Assembly: GCA_944383885.1 (NCBI GenBank)
Contig: CALWRF010000040.1
Coordinates: forward strand, 1 to 64,000
Reading direction: 5' to 3'
DNA: 64,000 nt
Source: an uncultured Clostridia bacterium
Lineage (GTDB): Bacteria; Bacillota; Clostridia; Lachnospirales; Anaerotignaceae
The position numbers were made by a program, and so were the translations under genes. Positions 11,481-37,371 of the stretch are shown piece by piece. The notes beneath the pieces were generated by a model. That model was not told the DNA's origin. It worked only from the letters and a program-made list of their open reading frames with translations, and did not search any database. Numbering within the stretch: the first letter of the stretch is position 1; each line of letters starts with the position of its first letter.

Positions 11481-11483
11481 TTA

Positions 11484-21097: not shown

Positions 21098-21652
21098 ATG
21101 AAAAAAACAACCAAATTTAAAAACCGTATCTTTGCTGTATCATTTTTCTGCCTTTTTGCCTTGTGCCTGCTTTCTTTTGCCCGTCCTGCGGCAGTAAGCG
21201 TTTTCAGCTCTTTTTCACAGGGCGAAAGGAAACTGCCTATTTACTGCGTAGACACGCCGGAAAAGAAAATATCCGTAAGTTTTGACGCTGCCTGGGGTGC
21301 CGATGATACAGACCAGCTTTTGCAGATACTTGCGGATAATAACGTAAAGGCAACCTTTTTTATGTGCGGTTACTGGGTTGACAAGTACCCTGAAGAAGTT
21401 AAGAAAATAGCCGAAGCCGGTCATGATTTAGGCAACCACTCAGCAACACATCCTCACATGAATTCCCTTTCAAGCGGGCAGATAAAAACAGAACTTGAAA
21501 AAACTCATCAAAAAGTCCTTGACCTAACAGGTGTAAGCATGAATCTTTTCAGACCGCCTTTTGGTGAGTATAACAATACTGTAATACAAACCGCCAACGA
21601 CTGCGACTACTACCCTATCCAGTGGGACGTTGAAGCAAATGCCACGGTATAA
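21098..21652 (+). CDS. pdaB: 5' part of an interrupted PdaB-type polysaccharide deacetylase gene
   Basis: N-terminal 178 residues of a spore-type polysaccharide deacetylase, followed in the present arrangement by six element-encoded residues (EANATV) and a stop. It has a signal or anchor segment (about 11-32), motif 1 with the catalytic-type Asp in SFDAAWGADD, the metal-binding HSATHPH and RPPFGEYN. Motifs 4 and 5 (DSLDW and LFHND) are missing here and occur in frame at 37129-37371. Joining at the GA dinucleotide (21632/37129) gives a 258-residue protein, the size of B. subtilis PdaB (about 254). Start ATG 21098 behind CGGAGG. The deacetylase should be inactive while split. Confidence 0.93.
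   Translation: MKKTTKFKNRIFAVSFFCLFALCLLSFARPAAVSVFSSFSQGERKLPIYCVDTPEKKISVSFDAAWGADDTDQLLQILADNNVKATFFMCGYWVDKYPEEVKKIAEAGHDLGNHSATHPHMNSLSSGQIKTELEKTHQKVLDLTGVSMNLFRPPFGEYNNTVIQTANDCDYYPIQWDVEANATV
21618..21649 (+). other. attL: left junction of the integrated element
   Basis: Left host arm TCCAGT (21618-21623), 8 bases, crossover GA at 21632-21633, then element arm AGCAAATGCC (21634-21643). The host arm mirrors ACTGGA at the right junction at the same distance from GA, and the element arm mirrors GGCATTTGCT there. Confidence 0.85.
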
Positions 21653-21781
21653 AACCAGTATGCTGCTTTAGTTTTATCACAAAACTATATTTTATGTCAA
21701 TATAAAATTCACTAAAAAATTACATTAAAAATATTTAATAATTTTATTGCCTTAATAAGCTTTTTAATGCATATATTTGTA

Positions 21782-21839
21782 TTGACATAGAAATAGTTTT
21801 ATAGTAAAATCAAATTTCGTAATATAGTTTTATTGTAAA
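21782..21839 (+). promoter_or_regulatory. marR promoter with two operator-like repeats
   Basis: TTGACA at 21782-21787, a 17-base spacer and TAAAAT at 21805-21810 form a near-consensus sigma-A promoter. ATAGTTTTATAGTAAA (21793-21808) lies between the boxes and recurs with one change at 21824-21839, exactly 31 bases on. The placement fits autorepression by the MarR protein. Confidence 0.75.
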
Positions 21840-21866
21840 CAGTTGTTTACGGAGATGATAAAAAAT

Positions 21867-22319
21867 ATGGAAAACTCAAACGAAAGCATACTTAAATTAA
21901 TAAACGACCTGCTTACATTCAATGTGCGCTTAGGGTGCATAATGCGCAACAATTTTAATGTAAACGGCAAAAGCCAGTTTGAAATATCTATGCGGCAGTT
22001 TCAAATACTGTTAGCCCTAAAGCTTGATAATACAGACAGCATATCGGGCTTAGAGCAGCTGTTTAATATTAGCAAAAGCAGCCTTTCACTAACTATATCT
22101 AAAATGGAAAAAGCAGGTCTTATACATAAAGAGCAGCTTCCAGATGACAAAGACCGGCGGATTGTACATTTAAAAATCACATCAAAAGGTGAAGAAATAA
22201 CAAAAAAGTTCGATGAAATAATTTGTGAATCCTTCACTGATTTTTATAAGACATTAAATGAAAAGCAGAAAGAGCATTTAAAAATCGGAGTGAATAGTTT
22301 AGTTAAAGTATTTGAATAG
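21867..22319 (+). CDS. MarR-family transcriptional regulator
   Basis: About 150 residues from ATG 21867 (GGAG 12 bases upstream; other in-frame starts are worse placed). Winged-helix MarR fold: SISGLEQLFNISKSSLSLTISKME recognition region (about residues 55-80) and the wing DDKDRRIVHLKITSKG. It lies 13 bases before an RND adaptor and pump, so it most likely represses that efflux operon and itself through the repeats at 21793 and 21824. First gene inside the left end of the element. Ligand unknown. Confidence 0.9.
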   Translation: MENSNESILKLINDLLTFNVRLGCIMRNNFNVNGKSQFEISMRQFQILLALKLDNTDSISGLEQLFNISKSSLSLTISKMEKAGLIHKEQLPDDKDRRIVHLKITSKGEEITKKFDEIICESFTDFYKTLNEKQKEHLKIGVNSLVKVFE

Positions 22320-22332
22320 GAGGATATTATAA

Positions 22333-23733
22333 ATGAAAAGAAAAATTATACCAACAGCTTTAATAGCTGCAATTGTTGCCGCAACAATGCTGACAGCATG
22401 CGGCAAAAGTGAGGATCCACAATCATCAGCTCCAGCAGAAAACACGGCAGTTACTTATGTTGAGGTGCTTAATACATCTGCCGGCTCAATAAAAAACGAG
22501 TATTTATACAGCGGCACTGTAAAACCGGTCAATGAAATTACTGTTTCAGGCACAATACAGGGAAAAGTCGCATCTGTAAATTTTGAAGTGGGAGATTATG
22601 TAAATGCCGGCGACGTGCTCTATACAATGGACACATCAGACATACTTAACTCCAAAAAAGTGGCTGAAGCGTCTTTAGCTTCTGCTGAAGCCAACATACA
22701 GTCAGCTCAGACAAGCCTTGACCTTGTAAACGGCGCAGCAATGCAAAGCCAGATAGAAAACGCAAAAAACGCCCTCAGTCAGGCTGAAATAGCTTATAAC
22801 ACAGCTAAAACAAATTATGATAACAATAAAGTTCTTTATGAAAACGGCGTTATAAGCAAAACCGATATGGATAATATTTCAGACGCGTATTCAAATGCTG
22901 AGATAGCTTATAACCAGGCTAAGGAATCCTATAATCTTACAATGCAGATGCCTGAGGAAAACCGCAGAAAAGCCGAAGACGCGCTTAATATAGCCAAAGC
23001 TTCAAGGGAAAGCGTTATAGCGCAGATTAATTCATATAACAAATCTCTTTCAGACGCAGTTGTAAAAAGCCCTATTTCAGGCTATGTAACAGCACGCAAT
23101 GTTGATGCCGGAACAGTGCTTGCTACAAACGAGCCTTTTAAAATTTCGGATACATCAAAAGTTACAATTAACGTAAGCGTTTCTGAGGATATAATTAACT
23201 CAGTAACAACAGGCGAGTCTGTTTCGGTTACAATACCTGCTGTGTCCAGTATGTCTAAGATAGGCACAATTAAAACAATAAATCCGGCTGCCAATACAGG
23301 CGGAACTTATGACATTGAAATAGAAATAGACAATACCGACGGCAAGCTTAAAAGCGGAATGTTCGGTGAGGTAAACTTTGTAAAAGACGAAAGCGATAAA
23401 ACAATTGTGCTTCCTGTAGATTCAGTAATAAACAAAGGCGGCGAAAAATACGTATTTGTATTAAAAAACAATACAGCTGTTAAAACACCTGTCCAGACAG
23501 GCATTGAAAACGGCAGTGAAATAGAAATAACAAGCGGTCTTACTGAAAATATGGACGTAGTAGTAAAAGGTCAGACATACATTGAAGACGGCGACCATAT
23601 AGAAGTAGCACCTGATACATACGATACAGAAAACAATGAAGCATTAATAAACGGCGAAGGAAACACAGCAGATACATCATCACAATCATCATCAGCCGTA
23701 TCCTCCGCTGATTCCGACACAAAGGAGGAATAA
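22333..23733 (+). CDS. RND efflux adaptor (membrane fusion protein), lipoprotein
   Basis: The 466-residue adaptor of an RND pump. It has a lipoprotein signal with lipobox LTACGKS, a biotinyl-lipoyl-like half (GKVASVNFEVGDYVNAGDVLY), a coiled-coil hairpin (about 110-240), the second lipoyl half (VKSPISGYVTARNVDAGTVL) and beta-barrel domains, then an acidic/Ser C-terminal tail. Start ATG 22333 follows AGGAGG. Three bases separate it from the pump gene. A lipid-anchored adaptor outside the membrane fits a Gram-positive RND system. Confidence 0.92.
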   Translation: MKRKIIPTALIAAIVAATMLTACGKSEDPQSSAPAENTAVTYVEVLNTSAGSIKNEYLYSGTVKPVNEITVSGTIQGKVASVNFEVGDYVNAGDVLYTMDTSDILNSKKVAEASLASAEANIQSAQTSLDLVNGAAMQSQIENAKNALSQAEIAYNTAKTNYDNNKVLYENGVISKTDMDNISDAYSNAEIAYNQAKESYNLTMQMPEENRRKAEDALNIAKASRESVIAQINSYNKSLSDAVVKSPISGYVTARNVDAGTVLATNEPFKISDTSKVTINVSVSEDIINSVTTGESVSVTIPAVSSMSKIGTIKTINPAANTGGTYDIEIEIDNTDGKLKSGMFGEVNFVKDESDKTIVLPVDSVINKGGEKYVFVLKNNTAVKTPVQTGIENGSEIEITSGLTENMDVVVKGQTYIEDGDHIEVAPDTYDTENNEALINGEGNTADTSSQSSSAVSSADSDTKEE

Positions 23734-23736
23734 TAA

Positions 23737-26700
23737 ATGCTAATTAAGACAGCTATAAAACGACCGGTAACTACCGTAATGGCAATATTAATAGTAATAC
23801 TTGCCGGCGTTATATCCCTTACAACATTAAAGCTTGACCTTATGCCTTCCATAGACATACCTATGGCAATAGTAAGCACAACTTATGTAGGCGCTGGTCC
23901 TGAAGAAATAGAAAACCTTATTACAAAGCCTATAGAAGAATCCGTAGGTACTGTAAGCAATGTAGATACCATATCTTCCACATCGTCTTCAAACTCATCA
24001 ATGGTAATGATACAGTTTGTTGACGGAACAAACATTGATACAGCAGCTTCTGACATCAGGGAGAAGATAGACCTTATAAAAGGCACCCTTCCGGAAGACG
24101 CCAGCGAGCCTATGGTTATGAAACTTGATATAAACGAAATGTCGTCAATAGTAGTAGGCGTCGGTTCCAATAAAATGGATATAGCCGACCTTACAACATT
24201 TGTAGACGACAATGTATCAAGCGATATTGAAAAAATAGACGGCGTTGCCTCAGTCAGCTTAGTCGGCGGTCTTAACGATGTTGTAAACATAACCTTAAAT
24301 ACAAGTAAAATGGACGGATACGGCATATCCTCCGCTCAGATAACAAATGCCCTTAAAGCCGAAAACATAAACCTGCCTATAGGTCAAATAACAAACGGTT
24401 CAACAAAAATAACCGCTAAAACCGTAGGCGAGTTTAAATCCCTTGACGATATAAGGAATATACTCCTTACTACAGCCGGCGGAAGCACTGTACGTTTAAG
24501 TGATGTAGCCGATGTAGAGCTTACAACAGAAGATGAAAACTCCTACGCTATAGTTAACGGAAGCAAAAGCATTATTATGGCAATAAGCAAACAGTCAGAT
24601 GCCAATATAGTTGATATTTCCGATAAAATAAATGCTGAAATAGAGCAGATACGCCAGCAGTATCCTGATTTAGACATACAAATGCTTTCAGATACTTCAG
24701 ACTATATAAGGACATCAGTAAACAACGTGCTTTCAACAGCTTTCCAGTCCGCGCTGCTTGCCGTTATAGTTCTTTTCATATTCCTCAGGAGTTTAAGCAC
24801 ATCTGCAATTATAGCCGTTTCAATACCTACATCAATAGTAGCTACATTTGCATTAATGTATGTATGCGATATGACACTTAATGTTATATCCTTAGGCGGT
24901 ATTACAATCGGTATAGGTATGCTTGTTGATAACTCTGTCGTAGTACTGGAAAACATATATAAATACCACTCAAAGGGATATCCTGCAAAAGAAGCTGCCG
25001 AAACCGGCGCTTCGGAAGTTGGTCTTGCGGTTATGGCTTCTACCCTTACAACAGTAGCCGTATTTATACCGCTTATGTTTGTTTCCGGTACAATAGGTCA
25101 GCTGTTTAAAGACCTTTCACTTACTGTATGCTTCTCATTAGGCGCATCCCTTATAGTATCGCTTACTTTTGTGCCTATGGCATGCTCAAAACTCCTTGTA
25201 CATGAGGAACACGGCAATGAAAACATGTCAAAAGGCGGTCCTATAGGCAAATTCCTTGATAAATGGGGCGCCGGGCTTGATAAAATAGATTCAACTTACA
25301 GAAAGTGCCTCCACTTTGTTTTAAGGCGCAAGAAAAGAACTCTTTTGGTAACAGTAATTATATTTATAGTATCTATAGGTCTTATACCTATAGTCGGTTT
25401 TGACCTTATGCCTACAATGGATGAAGGTTCAGCCTCCATAAGCATTGAAATGCCTTCAGGCACCGTAATAGACGAAACAACAAAAGTTGTAAACGAGGTA
25501 ATGGACCGCATAAGCGACATACCTGAAACAGAAGAGTATTATATAATGGCAGGCTCAAGCACATCTTCAATGCTCAGCGGCTCAAGCCAGACAGATACGG
25601 CTTCAATTACATTAAACTTTGTTGATATGAAAGAACGTGACCGTTCCACAGACGAAATTGTTGAAGATATAAAAGAGCGTGTTAAAACAATACCTGGAGC
25701 TGATATTACAGTATCGGCGTCAAGCAGCGCAATGGGCTCATACTCAGCTGCCAGCGATGTAGAAGTACAGATTAACGGCGATGACATAGATAATCTGCGT
25801 CAAGCTGGATACGACATAGAAAAAATACTTGAACAGCAGCCTTGGGCAAAAGATGTAGTTAACTCTTCGGAAACCAGCGTACTTGAAGCCAGTGTTGTAA
25901 TAAACAGGGAAAAAGCTTCTCAGTATGGTTTAACAACTTCAGCTATCGCAAGCACTCTTTCTACAGCTGTAAACGGAAGCACTGCAACTACTTACAAGTT
26001 AGACGGCGATGAAATAGACGTTATTATAAAAGATGACGAAGACCGTATAAGCTATCTGAATGACTTGCAGAAGGTTACTATCCAGACATCACGCGGCATA
26101 ATACCTATAACAGATGTTGTTGATATATCTACTGACGAGTCTGCAACAAGCATAACACGTATTGATAACCACAAATATCTTACAATAGGTTTAAACCTTA
26201 ACGGCATAACATCCGGCGAGGCTCAGCAGAACATAATAAGCCTTCTTAACCAGTACTCATTCCCAGACGGATGTTCTTACGAGTTTACAGGCGATATAGA
26301 AACAATGGTGGATACATTCCAGAGCCTTCTTTTAGCTCTTGTAGTAGCCCTTGCTCTGGTTTATATGATTATGGCTTCTCAGTTTGAGTCATTTATACAC
26401 CCGTTCTTAATTATGTTTGCCGTACCTCTTGCCATAACAGGCGCTATATTCGGTCTTTTTATAACAGGCAACTCTATTACATCTGTTACGTTTATGGGCT
26501 TTATAATGCTTGTCGGCATGGTTGTTAATAACGGTATCGTTCTTATTGACTATACAAACCAGCTTAGAGCTCGTGGCATGGAATGCAACGAGGCCCTTGA
26601 AGAAGCCGGCCCTAACCGTTTAAGACCTATACTTATGACAACACTTACAACAGTTATAGGTATGGTTCCTATGGCACTTGCTATAGGTGAAGGTACCGAA

Positions 26701-26880
26701 ATGCAGCGACCTATGGCTGTAGCTATTATATTTGGTCTTTCAATATCAACACTTGTAACACTTTTCTTCATACCTGTTTTATACTCAGCCGTTGAGATGT
26801 TCCGCTTAAAGAACGTATCAAAAAAGACAAAAAATAAACTCTTCGGCTCAAAGTTTAAAGACCATCAGGTAAGACAGTAA
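23737..26880 (+). CDS. RND-family multidrug efflux pump (HAE1/AcrB-like)
   Basis: A 1047-residue proton-driven exporter of the AcrB/SwrC type. It begins IKTAIKRPVTTVMAI, has about 12 membrane segments in two halves, two large extracytoplasmic porter domains, and the transmembrane-4 motif GIGMLVDNSVVVLENI whose Asp relays protons. The second-half signature FMGFIMLVGMVVNNGIVLID is present. Full length, no frameshift. It follows MarR and adaptor genes as one operon and ends at a strong terminator. Substrates might include drugs, bile acids or peptides; this is not readable. Confidence 0.95.
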   Translation: MLIKTAIKRPVTTVMAILIVILAGVISLTTLKLDLMPSIDIPMAIVSTTYVGAGPEEIENLITKPIEESVGTVSNVDTISSTSSSNSSMVMIQFVDGTNIDTAASDIREKIDLIKGTLPEDASEPMVMKLDINEMSSIVVGVGSNKMDIADLTTFVDDNVSSDIEKIDGVASVSLVGGLNDVVNITLNTSKMDGYGISSAQITNALKAENINLPIGQITNGSTKITAKTVGEFKSLDDIRNILLTTAGGSTVRLSDVADVELTTEDENSYAIVNGSKSIIMAISKQSDANIVDISDKINAEIEQIRQQYPDLDIQMLSDTSDYIRTSVNNVLSTAFQSALLAVIVLFIFLRSLSTSAIIAVSIPTSIVATFALMYVCDMTLNVISLGGITIGIGMLVDNSVVVLENIYKYHSKGYPAKEAAETGASEVGLAVMASTLTTVAVFIPLMFVSGTIGQLFKDLSLTVCFSLGASLIVSLTFVPMACSKLLVHEEHGNENMSKGGPIGKFLDKWGAGLDKIDSTYRKCLHFVLRRKKRTLLVTVIIFIVSIGLIPIVGFDLMPTMDEGSASISIEMPSGTVIDETTKVVNEVMDRISDIPETEEYYIMAGSSTSSMLSGSSQTDTASITLNFVDMKERDRSTDEIVEDIKERVKTIPGADITVSASSSAMGSYSAASDVEVQINGDDIDNLRQAGYDIEKILEQQPWAKDVVNSSETSVLEASVVINREKASQYGLTTSAIASTLSTAVNGSTATTYKLDGDEIDVIIKDDEDRISYLNDLQKVTIQTSRGIIPITDVVDISTDESATSITRIDNHKYLTIGLNLNGITSGEAQQNIISLLNQYSFPDGCSYEFTGDIETMVDTFQSLLLALVVALALVYMIMASQFESFIHPFLIMFAVPLAITGAIFGLFITGNSITSVTFMGFIMLVGMVVNNGIVLIDYTNQLRARGMECNEALEEAGPNRLRPILMTTLTTVIGMVPMALAIGEGTEMQRPMAVAIIFGLSISTLVTLFFIPVLYSAVEMFRLKNVSKKTKNKLFGSKFKDHQVRQ

Positions 26881-26891
26881 AATAAATATAC

Positions 26892-26931
26892 GGCGTTTTA
26901 TAAATCTAAAACTTATAAAACGCCTTTTTTT
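26892..26931 (+). terminator. terminator of the marR-RND operon
   Basis: Perfect 12-base stem GGCGTTTTATAA / TTATAAAACGCC with a 9-base loop and a seven-T run. Confidence 0.93.
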
Positions 26932-27007
26932 ATAAATAAATTTTATGTTAAATTTATGTTGTAATTTATGGTTTTTGCTGTATAATGAATCTGTAAATTA
27001 AATATCT

Positions 27008-27086
27008 GCGGGGGAACTTTATGTTGAGAAGGTTAAAACCTGACCCTTTGAACCTGTTGGTTAACACCAGCGTAGGGAAGCATACA
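27008..27086 (+). ncRNA. TPP (THI-box) riboswitch
   Basis: Conserved thiamine pyrophosphate aptamer core: the GGGG start, a TTGAGA loop word (CTGAGA in most), then ACCCTTTGAACCTG, and ACCAGCGTAGGGAAG at the 3' side. It lies before a terminator hairpin and the thiY-like gene, so thiamine pyrophosphate should turn the operon off by early termination. Confidence 0.95.
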
Positions 27087-27102
27087 AAATAAAAAAAATT
27101 AT

Positions 27103-27130
27103 ATCCTTCCCTTAGTGGAAGGATTTTTTT
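27103..27130 (+). terminator. expression-platform terminator of the TPP riboswitch
   Basis: ATCCTTCC / GGAAGGAT stem with a 6-base loop and a T run, 17 bases after the aptamer. Just past it, CCGCAGAT (27133-27140) can pair with ATCTGCGG (27004-27011) at the aptamer's 5' base. Confidence 0.88.
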
Positions 27131-27165
27131 GTCCGCAGATTACACAAAAAGGAGGAGATTTTCAA

Positions 27166-28278
27166 ATGAAAAAACTTATCACAATGGCACTTGCAGCAGT
27201 ATTAGCTGTAGCAAGCCTTGCCGGCTGCTCATCAGGCAGTACAACATCATCACAGGCAACTTCATCATCTTCAGGCAGCACAGAACAGAGCTCAGATACT
27301 GCATCAGGCAGTGAAACTGCTGAAAATACAGAGCTGGAAGACTTTGACTTAGTTCTTGACTGGTACCCTAATGCAGTACATGCCTTTATTTACGACGCTA
27401 TAGAAAAAGGCTATTTTGCAGAAGAAGGCCTGAATGTTAATGTACTTTTCCCTTCAAACAGCAATGATGCCATATCCCTTACAGCAGCAGGCAAAGCCGA
27501 TGCCGGTCTTTATTATCAGGACGATATAATTATGGCTATTGCCAACGAAGACGTTCCGGTTAAAATAATAGGCTCTGTAGTTCAGGAACCTCTTGACCTT
27601 ATAGCTTCTTTGGCAGATAAAAACATAACAAGACCTAAAGACCTTGAAGGCAAAACACTTGGCTACACAGGCGTGGCTTTCAGCGAAGCTGTAATTAACG
27701 CCATGATGGAAAACGACGGCTCCTCAATAGATAAAGTAAACTTAATAAACGTAGGCTTTGACCTTATGAGCGCCATGACAACTGGCAATGTAGATGCCAC
27801 ATTCGGCTGCTTTATAAATCACGAGATACCTCAGCTTGAAAAAGAAGGCTTTGACATGAGCTATTTTGTTCCTTCTGAATACGGCGTGCCGAACTATTAC
27901 TCGCTTGTTTTTGTCGCAAATAAAGACAGTGCTGAAGAAGACAACTATAAATACCAAAGATTTTTAAAAGCCTGCTCTAAAGGCTTTTATGATATGAAAA
28001 CAGACCCGGAAGGCACACTTGGCATACTTCTTTCAAACCAGAACGAGGATAACTTCCCTCTTGACCCGGATGTAGAAACACAGAGCATAAATATACTTCT
28101 GCCTATGATGGAAAAAGAGTTTTCTCCTTTCCTTGCGCAGGACCCTAACTGCTATCTTGAAAACATTAACTGGCTCTACGACAACGGACTTTTAAACGAA
28201 AAGATAGACGTATCAGAAGTTTTTATTGATTGTATAGATCAGGAATATTATTCAGTAGAAGAAGGAGAAGCTCAATGA
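27166..28278 (+). CDS. thiamine-precursor ABC transporter substrate-binding lipoprotein (ThiY-like)
   Basis: About 370 residues from ATG 27166 behind AAGGAGGAG. Lipoprotein signal with lipobox SLAGCSSGS, a Ser/Thr-rich linker, and an NMT1/THI5-like periplasmic-binding domain (LVLDWYPNAVHAFIYDAIEKG then GYFAEEGLNVNV). This family binds pyrimidine precursors of thiamine; B. subtilis ThiY binds formyl-aminopyrimidine. Control by the TPP riboswitch supports this. The permease and ATPase partners are not nearby. Four-base overlap with the M20 hydrolase gene. Confidence 0.88.
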   Translation: MKKLITMALAAVLAVASLAGCSSGSTTSSQATSSSSGSTEQSSDTASGSETAENTELEDFDLVLDWYPNAVHAFIYDAIEKGYFAEEGLNVNVLFPSNSNDAISLTAAGKADAGLYYQDDIIMAIANEDVPVKIIGSVVQEPLDLIASLADKNITRPKDLEGKTLGYTGVAFSEAVINAMMENDGSSIDKVNLINVGFDLMSAMTTGNVDATFGCFINHEIPQLEKEGFDMSYFVPSEYGVPNYYSLVFVANKDSAEEDNYKYQRFLKACSKGFYDMKTDPEGTLGILLSNQNEDNFPLDPDVETQSINILLPMMEKEFSPFLAQDPNCYLENINWLYDNGLLNEKIDVSEVFIDCIDQEYYSVEEGEAQ

Positions 28279-29450
28279 AAGATTATGAAAAAATAGTTAA
28301 AGCTGCTGCAGAAGGTGCCGAAAAATACTTTCCTTCCCAAATGGAATACTTAAAAAAATTCTCGGCTATAGACTGCGGAACAGGCAATGAAGAAGGCAAC
28401 GAAAAAGTTGTAAATTTATTAAAAGACCTGCTCGTTTCAATGGGCGCCGATGTTGAAATTCATTATGAAAAAGGTCTTGGCAGCCATATAACGGCAAAAA
28501 TAACACCACAAAACCCAAACGGTAAAATAATACTTAACGGACATTTGGATACAGTTTTCGGCGAAGGCTTTACAGCCGCTCATCCATTTCATATTGAAGG
28601 CGACTGGGCTTACGGTCTGGGTATAGCGGACTGTAAAAGCGGTGTCATGATTTCAATATTCGCCGTAAAAGCAATGCAGGACGCTGGACTTCTTCCAAAC
28701 AAGGAGATAGAATTTATATTTAACTGCGACGAGGAGATAGGCACATCTTCCGGCAGTAAATTGTACGCCAAAGAAGCTCAGAATGCAGAATATGCCTTTG
28801 TTTTTGAAGGCGCTGAAAAAGAAGACGGCAAAGACGGCTTTGTTACCGCACGCCGCGGAGTTATACTCGGCACTATGGATATTGAGGGAAAAGAAGCCCA
28901 TGCCGGCTGCGCGTATCTTGAAGGCCGCAGCGCCATACTTGAAATGGCGCATAAAATAATAGAATTTTATAATTTTAACGACTACAAAAAAGGCATTTAT
29001 TACAACGTAGCCCCTGTTTCAGGCGGAAGACCAAACGGTATTGTAGCCGGAAGCGCGCACTGCGAATTTTGCGTAGCCGGAATACCTTATAACTCAGATT
29101 TTGCCTCTGTTGAGGCAAACCTTAAATCCCTTGAAAAGAGCGTTACAGTTGAAGGCTGCAAAGTAAAAGTAAATTACCATACCCTTTTCCCTGCCATGGA
29201 GAAAGGCGAACAGAACACAAAAGCATTTAATACGCTTAAAAAGCCTGCCGAGCTTTTGGGCATGGAAATTAACGAGCTTTATGTTCCGGGAGCTACCGAC
29301 GGAGCTTATTTCAGTTCACTGGGAATACCTACTGTAGATGCCCTTTCTGCTGAGTTTAAAGACATTCATACTGTTAACGAATGTGTTAACATGCCGTCAA
29401 TTAAAAATCGCACAAAATTCTTTGCCACAGTTTTAGGCTGTCTTGAATAA
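28275..29450 (+). CDS. M20-family metallohydrolase, possible formyl-aminopyrimidine hydrolase (YlmB-like)
   Basis: A 391-residue zinc-dependent amidohydrolase of the M20 (CPG2/ArgE/YlmB) family. Start ATG 28275 overlaps the thiY stop. Metal ligands and catalytic residues appear in NGHLDTVFG (His, Asp), LGIADCKSG, and the Glu pair in NCDEEIGTSSG; a late His is in DIHTVNE. In B. subtilis, YlmB removes the formyl group from the ligand of ThiY in the salvage of degraded thiamine, and coupling with thiY under a TPP riboswitch suggests that job here. A glutamate carboxypeptidase-like peptidase is the alternative. Confidence 0.8.
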   Translation: MKDYEKIVKAAAEGAEKYFPSQMEYLKKFSAIDCGTGNEEGNEKVVNLLKDLLVSMGADVEIHYEKGLGSHITAKITPQNPNGKIILNGHLDTVFGEGFTAAHPFHIEGDWAYGLGIADCKSGVMISIFAVKAMQDAGLLPNKEIEFIFNCDEEIGTSSGSKLYAKEAQNAEYAFVFEGAEKEDGKDGFVTARRGVILGTMDIEGKEAHAGCAYLEGRSAILEMAHKIIEFYNFNDYKKGIYYNVAPVSGGRPNGIVAGSAHCEFCVAGIPYNSDFASVEANLKSLEKSVTVEGCKVKVNYHTLFPAMEKGEQNTKAFNTLKKPAELLGMEINELYVPGATDGAYFSSLGIPTVDALSAEFKDIHTVNECVNMPSIKNRTKFFATVLGCLE

Positions 29451-29464
29451 AAATATAAACCACT

Positions 29465-30135: not shown

Positions 30136-30704
30136 TGATATATTTAACTCTTTTTATTACTTTCTTTAAAATAGGCGCTTTTACTTTTGGCGGGGGTTAC
30201 GCTATGCTGCCCCTTATACAAAACGAGGTTTTAAACCACGGCTGGGCAACTATGGAAGAACTTGTTAACTTCCTTGCCATAAGCGAAAGCACCCCGGGAC
30301 CTTTTGCCATTAATATTTCAACATATATAGGCATGCGCTCAGCCGGTGTTTTAGGTGCCATTTGTGCCACAAGCGGTGTTGTGGCGCCGTCTTTTATAGT
30401 TATACTTATACTTGCCCGCTGTTACAAGGCTTTCAGCAGCCACTGGGCAGTAAAAGGCGCCTTGTTTGGTTTAAGACCGGCGGCTTGCGCTCTTGTTCTG
30501 TCGTCTGTTTTATCAGTTTTTATAACTGTTTTTTCGCCTTTCTGGCAGGAAAGTTTTAAAATAAGCCCTCTGTTTTTAGCGTCATTGGGCATATTTGTCC
30601 TTTCAACAGCAGGCTGTATTAAAAAAGCCAACCCTATACTTGTAATTGTGCTTTCGGCAGCAGCAGGGATAATTTTAGGTACGGCTGGTTTAATTACTAT
30701 TTAA
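30135..30704 (+). CDS. chromate transporter (CHR family), second subunit
   Basis: A 189-residue CHR-domain membrane protein, paralogous to the gene before it: both have KIGAFTFGGGYAMLPLIQ and a SESTPG motif. The start ATG overlaps the preceding TAA. Two-gene CHR pairs work as a heterodimer equal to one long-chain ChrA. It ends convergent with, and four bases over, the unknown gene to the right. Confidence 0.9.
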   Translation: MIYLTLFITFFKIGAFTFGGGYAMLPLIQNEVLNHGWATMEELVNFLAISESTPGPFAINISTYIGMRSAGVLGAICATSGVVAPSFIVILILARCYKAFSSHWAVKGALFGLRPAACALVLSSVLSVFITVFSPFWQESFKISPLFLASLGIFVLSTAGCIKKANPILVIVLSAAAGIILGTAGLITI

Positions 30705-31396
30705 AACCAGTAAAAGCATTTATAATGAGTTTCATCATTTACATAAAACAGCTGTAAAAAGTGACAGCTTGAAAGTGAGTTTTCAAAAGAAAAGTCTTTT
30801 CTGCTCTCATATATAAGCTCCATAGCGTCTTTGTCTTTGTTGCAGTAAAAAACAGTAAAAGTGCCTTTAAGCGAGCCATTTTCAATAAGTTCTTCCCTGC
30901 CGGCGCTTTTTATTGTTTTTAAACTTCTGCTGTTTGTGCCAAACTCATTGGAAAAAGCGTCTAAATCCAGATTAAAAAATCCGTTTCCTTTTATGCTGTC
31001 CATAAGCACCATTGCCATTTGGGCGCAGTCTTTAAAATTATCAAAGCACAAGACATAGCTTAAAATATATTTCTCTTTGCCACACTCTTTTCCGTCTGTT
31101 TCCCAGTCAACAGGAAAAAACGGGGACTGCGCTTCTTTGTTTTCAGCCTCAAAAACAGCCTTTTTAATGCTGTTTTCATCAGGTGAAACAACAAACAGAA
31201 ACCGGCTTTGCATAATATCGTATTCCGGGTCAAAATATCCGTCTACAGTTATAATTAAATCATCAGCAGACGGCGTACTGCCGTTAAAAAACTTAAATTC
31301 TGTTTTGTCATTTCCTCCTTCACGGCTTAAATTAAGGCTTTCAATATCAATGTAATCTTTTAAATTATCCAAGTCACCGGAAAAATAAAAATCCAT
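30701..31396 (-). CDS. uncharacterised 231-residue protein
   Basis: I do not recognise this gene. The product is soluble, acidic and rich in Phe and Asp, with no signal peptide or membrane segment, and reads like a mixed alpha/beta domain of the kind seen in unnamed Firmicutes proteins. ATG 31396 is preceded by AAGGAGGG. It is transcribed alone, between the chromate transporter and the cobalt importer. Coding is supported by the good ribosome site and its clean length. Confidence 0.7.
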   Translation of the reverse strand: MDFYFSGDLDNLKDYIDIESLNLSREGGNDKTEFKFFNGSTPSADDLIITVDGYFDPEYDIMQSRFLFVVSPDENSIKKAVFEAENKEAQSPFFPVDWETDGKECGKEKYILSYVLCFDNFKDCAQMAMVLMDSIKGNGFFNLDLDAFSNEFGTNSRSLKTIKSAGREELIENGSLKGTFTVFYCNKDKDAMELIYESRKDFSFENSLSSCHFLQLFYVNDETHYKCFYWF

Positions 31397-31454
31397 GGTA
31401 CACCCTCCTTATGTTATAAATAAAGTATACCATTACAAAGGCGTTATTAAAAGG

Positions 31455-32285
31455 TTACTTAATAAGCATTTCAAGCTCAGTTATATTTTTCGGCGCCGTG
31501 GAGTTTGCTGCTATAACGCCTTTGTTTATAAGCATTTTATATGTTTTTATTATCTGCGGCTCATATAAACCGGCAAAGTCCAAAAGCTCATTATTTAAAA
31601 ATAAATCTTCTGTTTTGCCGTTAAAAACTACTTTTCCATATTTAAGCACAATTACACTCTCTGCCCAGTTTAGTACAAAATCCATATTGTGGCTTGATAT
31701 AATAACAGTTTTGCCTTTAAGGCTTAAATCGTCTATTATTTTGTAAACAGTTTTAGTATTTACCGTATCAAGGTAAGCCCCAGGCTCATCAAGTATAATT
31801 ACTTCCGGCTCCATAACCATAACTCCGGCAAGGGAAACTCTTTTTTTCTCTCCGCCGCTTAAAGCATGAACTGGCTTGTCAAGCAGGCTTCCCAAATTTA
31901 AAAAATCCGATATTCTTTTTATTTTTTCTTCCGCCTGACTGTTTGAAAAACCCATATTTAAAAGTCCGAAAGCTATATCCTGCCTTACGCTTGAAGAAAA
32001 TATCATATCATCTGGATTTTGAAAAACTATTCCTACAAAGCGCCTTAAATTTAAAAGTCCTTTTGATGAGTAATCAATTTTTTTGTCTTTAAAAAATACA
32101 GACCCTTTTTGCGGCTTGTTTATGCCGTTTAAACACAGAAATAATGTGGATTTTCCTGAACCGTTAGAACCTATAACGGCTGTTTTTTCTCCCTGTTTTA
32201 TGCTTATATTAACATCAAAAAGAGCTGTTTGTCCGCTATGGTAGCTGTAGTTTAAGCCTTGAGTTTTAATAATATAATCCATCAA
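31455..32285 (-). CDS. cbiO: cobalt ECF transporter ATPase CbiO
   Basis: A 276-residue ABC ATPase with Walker A GSNGSGKST, signature LSGGEKKRVSLAG and Walker B VIILDEPGAYLDT. It powers the CbiMNQO cobalt importer at the cytoplasmic face of the membrane. Last of four overlapping genes in the order cbiM-cbiN-cbiQ-cbiO, all under one cobalamin riboswitch. Confidence 0.93.
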   Translation of the reverse strand: MMDYIIKTQGLNYSYHSGQTALFDVNISIKQGEKTAVIGSNGSGKSTLFLCLNGINKPQKGSVFFKDKKIDYSSKGLLNLRRFVGIVFQNPDDMIFSSSVRQDIAFGLLNMGFSNSQAEEKIKRISDFLNLGSLLDKPVHALSGGEKKRVSLAGVMVMEPEVIILDEPGAYLDTVNTKTVYKIIDDLSLKGKTVIISSHNMDFVLNWAESVIVLKYGKVVFNGKTEDLFLNNELLDFAGLYEPQIIKTYKMLINKGVIAANSTAPKNITELEMLIK

Positions 32286-33064
32286 TATACACGCTCCAAA
32301 ACACTAATTAACACAATAATAAAAACAATTAATACGGCAAATAAAACATATTTTTTGCTGCTGTCATACTTTACATTTAAAAAACTAATATCTCCGCTGT
32401 AACACCGGCTTAACATGGCGTTATATATAAAAACCGATTTATTGTACGAAAGCACAAAAACACTGGAGAGCATAAGCGCCATTGAATTAATTCGTGTTTT
32501 GAATGTTCTCTGCGCCATACGGCAGTTTTGCGCTGTAATAATGCTTTGCGCCATATTAAGCACAATAAATATAAACCTGTATATCAGTATAAAAAGCTCT
32601 GTTATTTCTTTTGGGCATTTTATAGTTTTAAGTACATACACAATATCATTTACAGGTGTTGTAAGTGATAAAAAACACATAGAACTTAATGACGCGGCAG
32701 ATGTAAAAAACAGCCTTACGGCTTTTTTAACACCCTCACTGTTTACAGTTAAAAAATAACCGTCTAATATTTTTACAGAAAATATTCCTTCACCGCAGTC
32801 AGTTATGTCAAAAGAAACCATAAAAGAGCTTAGTGCAATAAACAATATTGGAAAAAGCATAAAATGCCTTATCAAATGATTGCTTAAACCGTCGTTTTTT
32901 ACAACATTTTTTATAATAATAAGCCACATTACAAACATTGCGAAAACACAGCCTAAAGGTTCTTTAAATATCACACATGCCGTTATAACGCTTAACGCAA
33001 AACCTGCTTTTATGTTTGGATTTATACTTTTTACGCTATGCGCAGAATTTACAAAATCAATCAT
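32282..33064 (-). CDS. cbiQ: cobalt ECF transporter transmembrane protein CbiQ
   Basis: A 260-residue membrane protein with five to six hydrophobic segments and the CbiQ C-terminal coupling region (AQNCRMAQRTFKTRINSM) that contacts the ATPase. Overlaps cbiO by four bases and lies 12 bases after cbiN. Confidence 0.88.
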   Translation of the reverse strand: MIDFVNSAHSVKSINPNIKAGFALSVITACVIFKEPLGCVFAMFVMWLIIIKNVVKNDGLSNHLIRHFMLFPILFIALSSFMVSFDITDCGEGIFSVKILDGYFLTVNSEGVKKAVRLFFTSAASLSSMCFLSLTTPVNDIVYVLKTIKCPKEITELFILIYRFIFIVLNMAQSIITAQNCRMAQRTFKTRINSMALMLSSVFVLSYNKSVFIYNAMLSRCYSGDISFLNVKYDSSKKYVLFAVLIVFIIVLISVLERVY

Positions 33065-33076
33065 ATAAATATCCCT

Positions 33077-33385
33077 TTAAACAGTGTCATTATTTGATTT
33101 TTTATTCTTCTCATAAAGCACGCCCAGTCCAAAGCCAAATACTCCTGCTCCCAAAGCTGCCTGAAGACAGAAAAGAAGTGATTCCGTTTCAGAACCGGGC
33201 GGTTCAAAAACAGGCGACGCCCAAGGCTCATACTCGTAGCCTACTATTTGGGAAATTTCATCACTTGCCGCATCATCAGAGCCGCCAAAATCAGATGTGC
33301 GGTTTGTTAAAAGCGGAAAAACAGCAATAGCGGCACAAATAAATAAACAAGCAATAACTTTTTTAAATGATAAATTCATATTCAC
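33077..33385 (-). CDS. cbiN: cobalt transport protein CbiN
   Basis: A 102-residue protein with two membrane segments (about 10-27 and 73-92) and the CbiN loop VGYEYEPWASPVFEPPGSET between them. CbiN helps load Co2+ into CbiM. It overlaps cbiM by four bases. Confidence 0.93.
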   Translation of the reverse strand: MNMNLSFKKVIACLFICAAIAVFPLLTNRTSDFGGSDDAASDEISQIVGYEYEPWASPVFEPPGSETESLLFCLQAALGAGVFGFGLGVLYEKNKKSNNDTV

Positions 33386-34131
33386 GCCTCCCTGTTTAAA
33401 ATACCTTTGTTGTCAAAATCCAAATCCGAAATTTTTTCAACGGCAGATAACGCCAAAGCCGTTATTATTCCTTCAATAACCGCAAGGGGTATTTGTGTTA
33501 AGGCAAATATAGCTAAAAATTTAATCATAGACATAATAATTCCGCCATTTGGCGATGGATAAGCCACTGAAAGCTGGAAAGATGTTACACAGTATGTAAA
33601 TAAATCGCCTAAACCTGCCGCTAACGCCGCTGAAATAAATTTTCCGGCTTTTAATTTTCTGCAAATTTTATAAACCCCATAGGATACAAAAGGTCCTGCC
33701 ACAGCCATTGAAAAAGTATTGGCGCCAAGAGTTGTAATTCCGCCGTGAGCCAAAAGAAGTGCCTGAAAAACAAGCACAATGGCGCCGATAATACTCATTA
33801 CCCATGGTCCAAATATAATAGCGCCAAAGCCTACGCCTGTAGGGTGCGAACTGCTGCCTGTAACAGATGGTATTTTAAGTGAAGAAAGCACAAATGTAAA
33901 AGCTCCAGCCATAGATAATATAATAAGGGCTTTCTTATTCCGGGACGTAATTTTTTTAAGCGAAATAAATCCCATAACAATAAAAGGAATACATAATACA
34001 AACCACAAAATACAATCCTTAGGCGGTATATACCCTTCCATAATGTGCATAGCCTGTGCCTTTTGGGGAACAGCAAAAAGCAGGCATAAAACAGCTGTTA
34101 ACAAAAACACTTTCTTTTCTTTCTTTGTCAT
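33382..34131 (-). CDS. cbiM: cobalt ECF transporter substrate-specific component CbiM
   Basis: The Co2+-binding membrane component. From ATG 34131 (AGGAGG upstream) the product has 249 residues: a cleavable N-terminal signal ending QKAQA, then the mature N-terminus MHIMEGYIPP, whose His residues bind cobalt, and about six membrane segments. A longer open frame reaches 34299 but runs through the B12 riboswitch and is not the start. First gene of cbiMNQO. Confidence 0.95.
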   Translation of the reverse strand: MTKKEKKVFLLTAVLCLLFAVPQKAQAMHIMEGYIPPKDCILWFVLCIPFIVMGFISLKKITSRNKKALIILSMAGAFTFVLSSLKIPSVTGSSSHPTGVGFGAIIFGPWVMSIIGAIVLVFQALLLAHGGITTLGANTFSMAVAGPFVSYGVYKICRKLKAGKFISAALAAGLGDLFTYCVTSFQLSVAYPSPNGGIIMSMIKFLAIFALTQIPLAVIEGIITALALSAVEKISDLDFDNKGILNREA

Positions 34132-34271
34132 AAAAATCCTCCTTTTGATAAATAAAAAAGCTGCCCGTATTTGAAAGCAATAACAAATACGCACAGCAAA
34201 ATAAGGCTTTTTAAAAAAGCCAATTAAACACAAATTTGTTATACACCGCAACAAATAAGCTTCCTTATTAC

Positions 34272-34425
34272 ATGGCAGGTCTTCTGGCTTAGACATCACA
34301 ACGTATTTACGCCTTCCCGTTTAAAACAGTGACATAATTATAAATACATTCCGTCATCACAGCGGCGGGACCGCACAGGCTTATCCTGTTTCCCTATTAT
34401 CCTTCCTTAAAAAGGCACCACATAA
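34272..34425 (-). ncRNA. cobalamin riboswitch
   Basis: Read on the minus strand: GGTGCC at the 5' end, AATAGGGAAACAGG, a GCGGTCCCGCCGCTGTGATG B12-box-like region, and the 3' words GGGAAGGCG and AGCCAGAAGACCTGCC. It ends about 140 bases before cbiM and should lower cobalt import when coenzyme B12 is plentiful. Confidence 0.93.
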
Positions 34426-34510
34426 TACTAAATTTTAAAAGTACACAATTTTTGTAATTATATAACACTCATTCAGCACAGTCAATACAAATAAAATAAC
34501 CGTACTAAAT

Positions 34511-35170
34511 TTAATCTAAAACGCTTTTTAAAAAATCCATAGCACCAAAAGCATCTTCAGCTACAAACAACGCTTTTTTAAGCATATCTTTAGGCGGATA
34601 AACCATATCCGGTATACAGATAACATTTATATTCGCCCTTAAAGCAGCTGCAACACCGTTTGGCGAGTCCTCGAACACAACAGTTTTTTCAGCAGCGGCA
34701 TTTTCTTTTTTGCAGGCAGTTAAGAATATGTCCGGCTCAGGCTTTGAGCGCTCAGTTTCTTCTCCGCCTGTTATAGAATTAAAATACTGCCTTAAATTGG
34801 CAGATTTCAGATATAAATCTACATAGCGGCTTTTGGTAGAAGAGGCAACAGCACATTTTATGCCTTTTTCATAAAAGAACTCTAAAAGCTCCGGTATGCC
34901 TTTTTTAACTTCTATTTTACCGCTTTGTGATAAACAGCTTACATTCTGCCTTGCTTTTTTGCTTATCTCTTCAAAAGGATAATTTTCACCATAATTCAAA
35001 AGCATTTTTTCTTTAAGGCTTTTCCCTGTAAGACCTATTGTGCTTATATAAACTTCTTTTGTAAGATTATAGCCGTAAGAAGCCATTACTTTTTTAAGCT
35101 CTTTTGCAAAAGTCCTCTCCGAGTCAAATATAAGTCCATCCATATCGAATACGGCAAGTTCAATTTCCAT
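34511..35170 (-). CDS. HAD-IA phosphatase (beta-phosphoglucomutase-like)
   Basis: A 219-residue HAD-superfamily hydrolase with motif I FDMDGLIFDSE, motif II AVASSTKSRY, Lys region GGEETERSKPEPD and motif IV VVFEDSPNG. The ATG at 35170 with GGGGAGG upstream is preferred to a longer in-frame extension. Members act on sugar phosphates. It lies between the B12-controlled operon and the recombinase region; its link to either is unknown. Confidence 0.9.
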   Translation of the reverse strand: MEIELAVFDMDGLIFDSERTFAKELKKVMASYGYNLTKEVYISTIGLTGKSLKEKMLLNYGENYPFEEISKKARQNVSCLSQSGKIEVKKGIPELLEFFYEKGIKCAVASSTKSRYVDLYLKSANLRQYFNSITGGEETERSKPEPDIFLTACKKENAAAEKTVVFEDSPNGVAAALRANINVICIPDMVYPPKDMLKKALFVAEDAFGAMDFLKSVLD

Positions 35171-35247
35171 TTTATACCTCCCCAAAAGCCGCGCGAAATT
35201 AAAATTTACAGTCTGTAATTTATAAGCACACGGCTGTTTCAAGGTCA

Positions 35248-35640
35248 TTACTCATCAAATGAGTCCAAACAGAATTTATAAAAGTTATAATCATAGCTGT
35301 CGCTTCCAACACCTATAGTAAACAGAAGCTCGTCAACGCCTTCTTCCATAAGGAATTTATAAGCCCTGTTATATCCTTCAAGTATTGATTTACGATTTAC
35401 ATAATATGTATAAAGCCATAAAACAGTCTTTTTCTCGCCTTCGATTTCTACTTCCTTATTTGGATTTTCAATAACCAATTTTTCAGCCTCGGTAGGAGAA
35501 ATACCGGTTTTTTTCTCCATGTCGTCAACATCTTTAATCATTTTTTTGCCTTCTTTAACAAGCTTGGCGAAATCGTCATGTGTAGCTTTAAGATAGCGTA
35601 TAGTTTTTATTTTCCCATCTGGAGTAAGATTTTCAAACAT
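35248..35640 (-). CDS. uncharacterised 130-residue protein downstream of the recombinase
   Basis: Not recognised. From ATG 35640 (GGGGGTG upstream) the product begins MFENLTPDGKIK and is small, charged, helical and soluble, with an aromatic C-terminal part. It lies 70 bases after the recombinase gene on the same strand. A recombination directionality factor would fit this position, but nothing in the sequence proves it; a plain housekeeping cargo gene is equally possible. Confidence 0.65.
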   Translation of the reverse strand: MFENLTPDGKIKTIRYLKATHDDFAKLVKEGKKMIKDVDDMEKKTGISPTEAEKLVIENPNKEVEIEGEKKTVLWLYTYYVNRKSILEGYNRAYKFLMEEGVDELLFTIGVGSDSYDYNFYKFCLDSFDE

Positions 35641-35710
35641 AACAGCACCCCCTGAAAATTCTTTTATAAAATTAGGATATTTTAAAAAAAGGATTATGTC
35701 AATACACATA

Positions 35711-37060
35711 TTAAAATCTGTAAAAAATATGCGCATTCCTCCCATTTATAACTACCTTCTCAATTAAAAGGCTTAATAAAAGCTTTTTCTGACCAAAAGG
35801 CATTTCTTCAATTTTTAATTGAAACTTATTTTTACTCTCATTAGAATTATGTTTCAATTCCTCAAGTTTTTTAATCCTTTCATTTATGTATTTTACACTT
35901 GCTCCGCCTTCTTCAACAGCCTTTACAAGATTGCTTATTCTGCTTTCAATCTCGGTTTTCTCAATACTTTCACTATAAGAAGATAAATAATAATTGGCAA
36001 CGCTTTCAGAGTCTGAAGCAATTTCCTTTTCCAAATCGTATATATTAAAGCCTTTATTCACCGTACAGCCTTTGGAACAAAACATATACCTTTTTTTGCC
36101 TGAATATATAATTTTAACGCTTTTGCCGCACTTGCCGCATTTTAAAAGTCCGGACAAAACCGACTGCTTTCCGTAAGTATTTGCACACACAGCACTGTTT
36201 AAATCAAGGCGCCTGTTGCAGTTTAAAAAAATATCCGGCGGTATAACGCCTTTATGTCCGGCAATGGAAAGCTTTTTCATGCAGCCGCCCTCTTTACCCG
36301 TAAGCATAGCGGCATTAACACCGTTAAAATCCTTTTCATTATTTTCTGCCTCAACGCCTTTTTCAGCATAATACCAGTAAATATCGCTGTTGCAGGCGGC
36401 GTAAATCGGATTTCTTATTATTCTGGAAACAGCTCTGCTGTCCCAATATTTTTCCGGGCATAAAAGAGAAGCTTCCTTTGCCGTATAAGAAAGGCTTTTG
36501 CCTTTGTAATAAAGACTGAATATTAATTTTATAACGCCTATATAACTGTTTTCTTTTAAATAAGACACTTTTCTGCCATCTGAAATATATTTTATAATTT
36601 CAAAGCCCAAAGGCGCCGGTCCTCCTGTCCATACGCCTCTTTTAAACCGCGCAAAATAATTATCCCGTATTCTTTCGGCTATAGTTTCTCTCTCCAGCTG
36701 CGCAAAGCTCATTATAATATACAGCATAGCCCTGCCTATAGGCGATGATGTGTCAAATTTTTCGTTAACTGATAAAAATTCAACCCCGTATCTTTCTATC
36801 TCCTGCCAGAAAGAAGAAAAATCAGCTATTGAGCGGCTGAGCCTGTCAAGTCTGTAGACTATTATACGGTCTATATTTTTATTCCTAATTTGACTCAGCA
36901 TATTTTTAAAAGCCGGTCTGTTAAAATTTTTGCCTGAAAATCCTTTGTCAGCAAAAACTTTATATTCCCCTTTAGCCTCTAAAGCGCAAATCTCAATTTG
37001 CGCATCTATTGAAATGCTGTCTTTTTTATCCACTGACTGCCTTGCATATATCGCATCCAT
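35711..37060 (-). CDS. large serine recombinase (site-specific integrase/excisionase)
   Basis: Catalyses integration and excision by a serine-linked 2-base staggered cut. From ATG 37060 (MDAIYARQSVDKK) it has 449 residues: resolvase domain with catalytic Ser9 and the arginines in YRLDRLSRS, the Recombinase domain (about 160-260, GGPAPLGFE), a zinc ribbon (CGKCGKSVKI ... MFCSKGC) and a coiled-coil stretch near 370-410. This is the type that excises sigK skin. An in-frame ATG at 37123, inside the attachment arm, would add 21 basic residues and has AAGGGA upstream, so the start is uncertain. The gene lies just inside the right junction of the element. Confidence 0.94.
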   Translation of the reverse strand: MDAIYARQSVDKKDSISIDAQIEICALEAKGEYKVFADKGFSGKNFNRPAFKNMLSQIRNKNIDRIIVYRLDRLSRSIADFSSFWQEIERYGVEFLSVNEKFDTSSPIGRAMLYIIMSFAQLERETIAERIRDNYFARFKRGVWTGGPAPLGFEIIKYISDGRKVSYLKENSYIGVIKLIFSLYYKGKSLSYTAKEASLLCPEKYWDSRAVSRIIRNPIYAACNSDIYWYYAEKGVEAENNEKDFNGVNAAMLTGKEGGCMKKLSIAGHKGVIPPDIFLNCNRRLDLNSAVCANTYGKQSVLSGLLKCGKCGKSVKIIYSGKKRYMFCSKGCTVNKGFNIYDLEKEIASDSESVANYYLSSYSESIEKTEIESRISNLVKAVEEGGASVKYINERIKKLEELKHNSNESKNKFQLKIEEMPFGQKKLLLSLLIEKVVINGRNAHIFYRF

Positions 37061-37106
37061 ACAAAAACCGCTTTTTCTTTTTTTATATTTATATTTAAAA
37101 TATAAT

Positions 37107-37144
37107 TTTTTATTCCCCGGCATTTGCTGATTCCCTTGACTGGA
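37107..37144 (+). other. attR: right junction of the integrated element
   Basis: Element arm GGCATTTGCT (37119-37128), crossover GA at 37129-37130, 8 bases, host arm ACTGGA (37139-37144). With the left junction this makes an attP-like site with 10 perfect plus several partial outer pairs, and an attB-like site TCCAGT-8-GA-8-ACTGGA. Confidence 0.85.
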
Positions 37145-37371
37145 AAGAACAAGGACCTGAAGCCGAAATAAACCAGGTGCTTAATCATAAACACCTGTCA
37201 AACGGTTCCATTATACTTTTCCATAACGACGCCAAATATACCCCTCAGGTATTAGATACAATTTTAAAGGGTCTTAAAGAAAAAGGCTATGAAATTGTGC
37301 CTGTAAGCGAGCTTATACATAAAGATAACTATTACATGGATAATGAAGGAAGGCAGAAATTAAAATCTTAA
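37129..37371 (+). CDS. pdaB: 3' part of the interrupted PdaB-type polysaccharide deacetylase gene
   Basis: The last 80 residues of the deacetylase split at 21632, with no start signal of its own. It begins exactly at the crossover with DSLDWKEQG (motif 4) and continues to IILFHND (motif 5, metal or substrate site) and the conserved GYEIVPVSELI end. In frame with the 5' part after excision. PdaB-type enzymes act on spore cortex peptidoglycan and are needed for stable spores in B. subtilis; that role is inferred for this host from family likeness and nearby spore genes. Confidence 0.92.
   Translation, partial: DSLDWKEQGPEAEINQVLNHKHLSNGSIILFHNDAKYTPQVLDTILKGLKEKGYEIVPVSELIHKDNYYMDNEGRQKLKS

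Follow-up and report, generated by a model that had tools for sequence, protein, structure and literature searches.

What becomes of a sporulation gene that has been cut in two by a piece of DNA carrying its own recombinase? This question is raised by a locus in an uncultured Clostridia bacterium of the family Anaerotignaceae, which is likely a spore-former (GenBank assembly GCA_944383885.1; genome of 2.4 Mb in 42 contigs, completeness 100). The stretch that we analysed, from here on called the window, comprises bases 1-64,000 of contig CALWRF010000040.1 (C40; 277,573 bp). It contains a pdaB-type deacetylase gene whose 5′ and 3′ parts are separated by a recombinase-bearing element; PdaB has a role in keeping the spore cortex. 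Our prediction, which we consider likely, is that the recombinase excises the element and thereby rejoins the gene, probably in the mother cell during sporulation.

A pdaB-type gene in two parts

The features on which the argument is built are the following, att denoting the attachment sites of the element:

21070..21089, + strand: conserved block taatatacta and ribosome site upstream of pdaB, possibly a mother-cell promoter (upstream alignment, six genomes of the genus)
21098..21633, + strand: 5′ part of the pdaB-type gene, codons 1-178 plus GA (profile match, att alignment)
21632..21633, + strand: attL core GA (att alignment)
21634..37130, no strand: the element, 15,497 bp (att alignment)
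35711..37123, − strand: large serine recombinase, likely start 37060 (Pfam; phrog_95 integrase, 263 bits)
37129..37130, + strand: attR core GA (att alignment)
37131..37371, + strand: 3′ part of the pdaB-type gene, last 80 codons (profile match, att alignment)

The reading frame of the 5′ part stays open until a TAA at 21652. When the two parts are joined at their common GA (21632-21633 and 37129-37130), a single frame of 777 nucleotides results, i.e., 258 codons plus a stop, with the residues WDV-DSLDWKE across the joint. The profile matches are complementary, since the frame at 21098-21652 covers positions 1-130 of the 191 positions of the NCBIfam model TIGR02764 (PdaB) with 145 bits, and the frame at 37126-37371 covers positions 129-191 with 68 bits. 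For the joined protein PdaB is the best model, 68 bits ahead of the next. The original prediction, which had read the 178 and the 80 codons as one 258-residue protein of PdaB length, is borne out. A profile search of the genome found no second PdaB, the nearest paralogue and best other match being PdaA (315.6 bits, above its own cut-off). Neither the PdaA gene nor the genes matching sigma-E and sigma-K are interrupted.

If the two parts encoded separate polypeptides that act alone or reassemble, the 5′ part would be expected to have its own start and an early stop; it has both, and a block upstream of it is conserved. We give this only a very small chance, because the cut interrupts WDVDSLDW, a conserved stretch, and because the 3′ part starts directly at the att site, with no conserved start codon or ribosome site seen for it in the aligned junctions. 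Upstream of pdaB, the sequence TAATATACTA is found in all six genomes of the genus in an alignment of the upstream DNA, including the genome G052, whose gene is uninterrupted. As to promoter class, the DNA ahead of pdaB and ahead of the recombinase gene yielded conserved blocks only.

The att sites attL and attR share the GA core in direct orientation, and both gene halves lie on the + strand. Reconstructed from the sequence that precedes the right GA and the sequence that follows the left one, attP reads GGCATTTGCT-GA-AGCAAATGCC. Centred on GA, its two arms match as an inverted repeat at 17 of 20 positions, a value that none of 15,377 other tested centres in the element equals. To judge from the sequence, this anatomy is as expected for a serine integrase that inserted at a 2 bp core. 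The recombinase carries the Pfam domains Resolvase, Recombinase and Zn_ribbon_recom, each above gathering, and qualifies by these as a large serine recombinase; against NCBIfam models it scores best with XisF (109 bits, cut-off 375) and reaches 100 bits with CcrB (cut-off 900), in both cases below the curated cut-offs. The original prediction of a skin-like element whose right junction has a large serine recombinase inside it agrees with what the locus contains, and the att sites are exact. We rejected the possibility of an assembly artefact: the layout is shared by four further genomes of the genus (G050, G051 and G049 on one contig each, G053 on two contigs), which speaks against an assembly error.

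Recurrence in the family and descent within the genus

Comparing relatives for an intact pdaB, as had been proposed for this locus, reveals both states in abundance. Among 58 genomes of the family, searched by profile for PdaB, the gene is interrupted in 29, namely in 26 at the window's site (G000, G002-G004, G006, G007, G012, G015, G022, G024, G026, G030, G032, G034, G038, G039, G042, G046-G051, G053, G056, G057) and in three at a second site alone, called site 1. The window's site (site 2) is contiguous in 30, which comprise 27 genomes without any split seen and the three that are split at site 1 alone (G013, G028, G029); G016 is counted here, its contig opening with adapter-like sequence that is followed by an uninterrupted pdaB. 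The states of G055, G041, G009, G021, G017 and G027 come from the family search and not from the junction alignment, to which G044 (C147) contributed no sequence and in which the 5′ side of G030 stops at a contig end. In two genomes, G001 and G040, the family search gave no PdaB match. Among the 26 split genes, the 3′ half is missing from the assembly in G026 and G038, and the 5′ half in G032.

The recombinase goes with the split. In 24 of the 26 split genomes (all except G026 and G032), a relative of the window's recombinase lies no more than 2 kb from a pdaB half, versus in none of the 27 unsplit ones (E 1e-20), of which G016 and G044 have contigs that end near pdaB, such that an adjoining recombinase could lie out of view. 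GA stands on both sides in all 22 relatives with both ends readable, of the 26 split at this codon. The inverted repeat is reached by at most 5 of 2000 shuffles in 16 of these 22; for the other six the number is 15 to 355, with G046 the weakest.

Seven genomes (G013, G015, G028, G029, G030, G034, G057) are interrupted at site 1, which lies in the SFDAAWG motif, and four of them (G015, G030, G034, G057) are split at both sites and thus have three-piece genes; in G015 and G034 the break at site 1 was read from attR-like sequence, their first pieces not having been found. The site-1 recombinases form a lineage distant from the window's recombinase.

What is inserted at the window's codon differs greatly between relatives. 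The insert of G022 (46 kb) has 57 open reading frames (ORFs), 29 of which were scanned against PHROGs and gave matches to terminase, portal, head protease, tail sheath, tape measure and baseplate families; in the 39 kb insert of G002, for which 24 of 48 ORFs were scanned, the matches include terminase and portal. At the other extreme, G046, G047 and G048 carry relics of 2.5-2.8 kb that consist of a recombinase, an ORF of 55-75 amino acids and an endolysin-type amidase, and the recombinases of these relics have a ratio of nonsynonymous to synonymous change (pN/pS) of 0.32-0.45. The window's metabolic island is a third kind of insert beside prophages and relics. None of its named cargo is annotated as phage-structural, and of four window proteins scanned against PHROGs the recombinase alone matched (as an integrase).

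Contiguous proteins of split species are present in public protein data. The joined protein of G022 is identical to P0039 at 264 of 265 residues; P0039 has 19 members and four contigs, the longest 276,007, and alongside it there are proteins with the 5′ half alone (P0153, P0155; 204 amino acids, 95%). The G022 recombinase, for its part, is 99% identical to one that carries the label Anaerotignum propionicum. Compared by halves, G003 matches P0033 at 99.4 and 100%, G015 matches P0042 at 99.1 and 100%, G012 matches P0035 at 97.1 and 97.5%, and G006 matches P0013 at 97.3 and 98.7%. Such proteins may stem from excised loci or from strains free of the insert; the predicted joint occurs either way.

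Within the window's genus, the split is kept in five of six species, with a collinear island in G050, G051 and G049 (the cbi genes being absent from the last) and in G053. To the window's recombinase, those of G050, G051, G049 and G053 are 78, 68, 61 and 53% identical, and the corresponding values for pdaB are 93, 87, 80 and 74%. The recombinase tree, (G039,(G053,(G049,(G051,(G000,G050))))), matches the pdaB tree save for the order among G000, G050 and G051. G039 belongs to another genus; its 5′ half is followed by genes for MarR, adaptor, pump, binding protein and peptidase, and the contig of its 3′ half carries HAD, cbi and 231-aa genes. Since it shares these genes, the island looks older than the window's genus.

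This pattern bears on the alternative that the element leaves now and then in growing cells, by phage-type induction or active lysogeny, and that PdaB is made only in cells or strains with an empty site. Prophages with head, packaging and tail genes do sit at the same codon in some relatives, the joined public proteins may come from element-free strains, and in another genus G003 and G004 have nearly identical recombinases, but not pdaB genes, which suggests horizontal movement. In the window's island, by contrast, no phage structural gene is annotated. Its recombinase and cargo track the phylogeny of the host, and with the split kept in five of six species of the genus spores would always have to come from rare cells. 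We therefore regard occasional excision as an unlikely account of this locus.

A gene that is permanently broken and dispensable, its halves being mere relics, would be in keeping with the genomes that gave no PdaB match and with a split lacking a recombinase outside the family (G228, see below). The selection on the halves speaks otherwise. For the 5′ and 3′ half, respectively, pN/pS is 0.069 and 0.039 versus G050, 0.135 and 0.041 versus G051, 0.192 and 0.112 versus G049, and 0.221 and 0.169 versus G053, i.e., low (0.04-0.22) against four species that are split alike; the same regions of the uninterrupted G052 gene give 0.169 and 0.107. As synonymous sites are saturated in several pairs, only the contrast of pN/pS was used. 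Judged by this contrast, both halves are under strong purifying selection and are conserved like the uninterrupted gene. The recombinase, at a pN/pS of 0.23-0.44, has kept an open frame in each of the five genomes of the genus that are split, and it has been retained even in the 2.5-2.8 kb relics. Permanent loss of the gene is therefore quite improbable.

Predicted excision, the cargo and known elements

According to the mechanism that we propose, the recombinase would recombine attL with attR, and the element would leave. If this happened in the mother cell during sporulation, the pdaB-type gene would be rejoined in frame there, and the forespore would retain the island. The island's genes for efflux, uptake of a thiamine precursor, cobalt uptake and a peptidase would then be lost solely from a cell that is about to die, which would explain their persistence at this place across many species. 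A recombination directionality factor would be expected to take part. Excision, its timing in sporulation, its place in the mother cell and an action of the joined enzyme on spore peptidoglycan are what we infer from the exact att anatomy, the association with the recombinase, the conserved halves, the lack of another PdaB, the relics and the joined proteins of split species. The largely congruent trees of recombinase and pdaB in the genus, and the uninterrupted gene in its recombinase-less genome, point the same way, as does the binding of SpoIIID, a mother-cell regulator, to DNA upstream of ybaN (pdaB) in B. subtilis (PMC517825).

Several observations weigh against this interpretation. The joined protein covers positions 1-191 of TIGR02764 at 226.1 bits, 11 bits below the curated equivalog cut-off of 237.4, and for this reason we call the gene pdaB-type; a natural, uninterrupted relative, P0001, likewise falls short with 230.2 bits. 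For the window's own species, neither a joined nor a half protein is among the best 120 of 6,746 matches. In G052, which branches within the clade (support 0.85), pdaB is uninterrupted and the recombinase found no match, and this genome keeps the peptidase, binding-protein, HAD and 130-aa genes next to pdaB, with the pump elsewhere; the interruption has thus likely been lost there and the cargo retained, and G052 demonstrates that such a loss can occur. In G039 the halves and the island (L275, L276) are divided between contigs C1 and C9; should these belong to one chromosome arm, at least about 176 kb would separate the two parts. Outside the family, the pdaB gene of G228 (L251; single contig of 2,035,557 bp) is split by 1.5 kb of DNA encoding a 319-aa secreted-type protein and no recombinase, and G182 (L255, L256; single contig of 5,626,074 bp) has a three-piece pdaB whose 3′ half is oppositely oriented. 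Finally, no directionality factor was identified in the element, where a small or overlapping ORF could encode one; gaps between its ORFs are at most 375 bp, and the two largest contain riboswitches.

The 130-aa neighbour of the recombinase was considered as a directionality factor and dropped as a candidate, because it is kept in the recombinase-less G052. The relics of G046, G047 and G048 (L052, L053, L054) each have the ORF of 55-75 amino acids divergent from the recombinase, a candidate for this factor by position only.

The cargo of the window's island, all of the named part of it metabolic, is as follows:

21843..22319, + strand: MarR-type regulator (Pfam MarR_2, above gathering)
22333..23733, + strand: RND adaptor (TIGR01730, 199.6 bits, cut-off 94.9)
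23737..26880, + strand: RND pump (Pfam ACR_tran, 878.7 bits)
27000..27096, + strand: thiamine pyrophosphate (TPP) riboswitch (Rfam RF00059, above gathering)
27166..28278, + strand: NMT1/THI5-like substrate-binding protein, predicted thiamine-precursor uptake (Pfam NMT1, 218.7 bits)
28275..29450, + strand: M20-family peptidase (Pfam Peptidase_M20)
29659-30135 and 30135-30704, + strand: two chromate-transporter-type genes (Pfam Chromate_transp)
30701..31396, − strand: 231-aa protein (no Pfam, NCBIfam or PHROG match)
31455..34134, − strand: cobalt uptake genes cbiO, cbiQ, cbiN, cbiM (Pfam CbiN, CbiQ, CbiM, ABC_tran)
34257..34437, − strand: cobalamin riboswitch ahead of cbiMNQO (Rfam RF00174, 112 bits)
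34511..35173, − strand: HAD-type phosphatase (Pfam HAD_2)
35248..35640, − strand: 130-aa protein (no Pfam, NCBIfam or PHROG match)

Just outside attL, at 18975-20120 (− strand), the window has a gene for a TolC-type outer membrane efflux protein (Pfam OEP); with the RND adaptor and pump on the other side of attL, the att site may run through a single efflux system. The window also holds spoIIR and sleB (above cut-off) and a GerA/B/C-type operon (below curated cut-offs).

Developmental excision from within a gene in a terminal cell is familiar from the heterocyst elements, such as the fdxN element with XisF. The match of the window's recombinase to XisF lies far under the cut-off, and host and gene are different. 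In sporulating bacteria, two studies (PMC10747680, PMC5595907) name sigK, spsM, spoVFB, gerE and yabG as genes with intervening elements, and among the open-access papers searched we recognised none that describes pdaB as such a target, in agreement with the original prediction. The closest likeness is to skin in sigK of B. subtilis and C. difficile, a serine-recombinase element inside a mother-cell sporulation gene whose halves are in frame (PMC5025042, PMC10747680); here, however, the target is pdaB and sigK is uninterrupted, the cargo is metabolic, and excision is predicted. An intervening element without phage genes has a precedent in gin, which interrupts gerE of B. cereus ATCC10987; gin encodes three recombinases and a demonstrated factor, GirX, and its core measures 9 bp (PMC5595907), whereas we find one recombinase, no identified factor and a core of 2 bp. 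The elements yin in yabG, SPbeta in spsM and vfbin in spoVFB resemble ours in being a prophage or prophage-like element in a sporulation gene; their targets differ, and a recurrent use of two sites of one gene over many species is not described in the accessible portions of PMC10747680 and PMC4191935. By its sequence features, the window's element thus belongs with the sporulation gene-intervening elements; its target is new, its metabolic cargo is inherited vertically, and its excision is predicted.

While elements that interrupt sporulation genes are known in a handful of targets, one deacetylase gene is hit here in half of the family genomes examined. Moreover, different stages can be seen side by side: prophages, relics of a recombinase and two genes, a metabolic island, and a lost interruption with cargo kept. 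Two questions thereby become testable: what makes phages settle in genes of the mother cell, and whether the excision machinery is maintained by selection acting on the host gene. If excision does occur, a terminal cell would shed vitamin-uptake and efflux genes in a programmed way, which would be a split between soma and germline for useful genes.

Sites and hosts beyond the family

We also inspected 24 genomes outside the family, taken from at least 294 in an order survey because their gene looked truncated, and hence no random sample. The parts are apart at the window's site in 11 of the 24 (G084, G091, G137, G171, G177, G182, G186, G190, G212, G226, G228), which belong to four other families; G076 (uninterrupted over the site and cut by a contig end) and G101 (contig ending at the core) were left out of this split count. 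Five inserts were obtained whole, and four of them (G084, G177, G182, G190) contain a recombinase of the window's family, the insert without one being that of G228. Recombinases of both lineages occur in G182.

With the window's recombinase as a single query, ten stretches in viral contigs matched a pattern, and none was a relative. An alignment query kept 79 loci in viral contigs, with a pdaB half within the available DNA at one of them: in L169, an IMG/VR contig of 11,050 bp, a related recombinase precedes a 3′ half of pdaB that shows 58% identity. In phage records there were 1,056 matches, every one below 60% identity.

Tentatively, and with slightly more doubt than confidence, we suggest that pdaB could be a developmental recombination hub of the order. 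Two unrelated lineages of serine-recombinase elements would have repeatedly invaded two of the gene's most conserved motifs. Some of them would by now be metabolic islands, inherited vertically and discarded by the mother cell, others would leave three-piece genes in need of two excisions, and in one lineage pdaB 5′ ends, mobile and made up of promoter plus 68 codons, would serve as the repeated joints of an array of anti-phage defence cassettes.

Some further arrangements of the gene were noted along the way. In L155 (Bacterium 1xD8-48; 10001-12805), the 3′ piece of pdaB comes first and the 5′ piece follows it in inverted orientation, separated from it by a recombinase of the site-1 type; this arrangement suggests an invertible state. 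Lachnospiraceae-type genomes have possible further interruption sites, the match ending at residue 155 in L151 and L152 and at residue 94 in L156 and L157; L151 and L157 have recombinase-like ORFs nearby, too. In G176 (L242-L248; contigs C38, C47, C64, C134 and C6), eleven open copies of the pdaB 5′ end, each of about 68 codons and stopping at the site-1 core, alternate with anti-phage genes, with CATAATATA upstream in eight of the eleven and the 3′ piece on C95. PADLOC matched nine of ten proteins scanned there (GajA, GajB, type I-C Cas1, Cas7, Cas8, AbiEii, PDC-M12A/B, PDC-S49), so that this looks like an array of defence cassettes jointed by pdaB 5′ ends. Among the nine genomes of this genus, G166 and G234 likewise carry more than one copy of the pdaB 5′ end.

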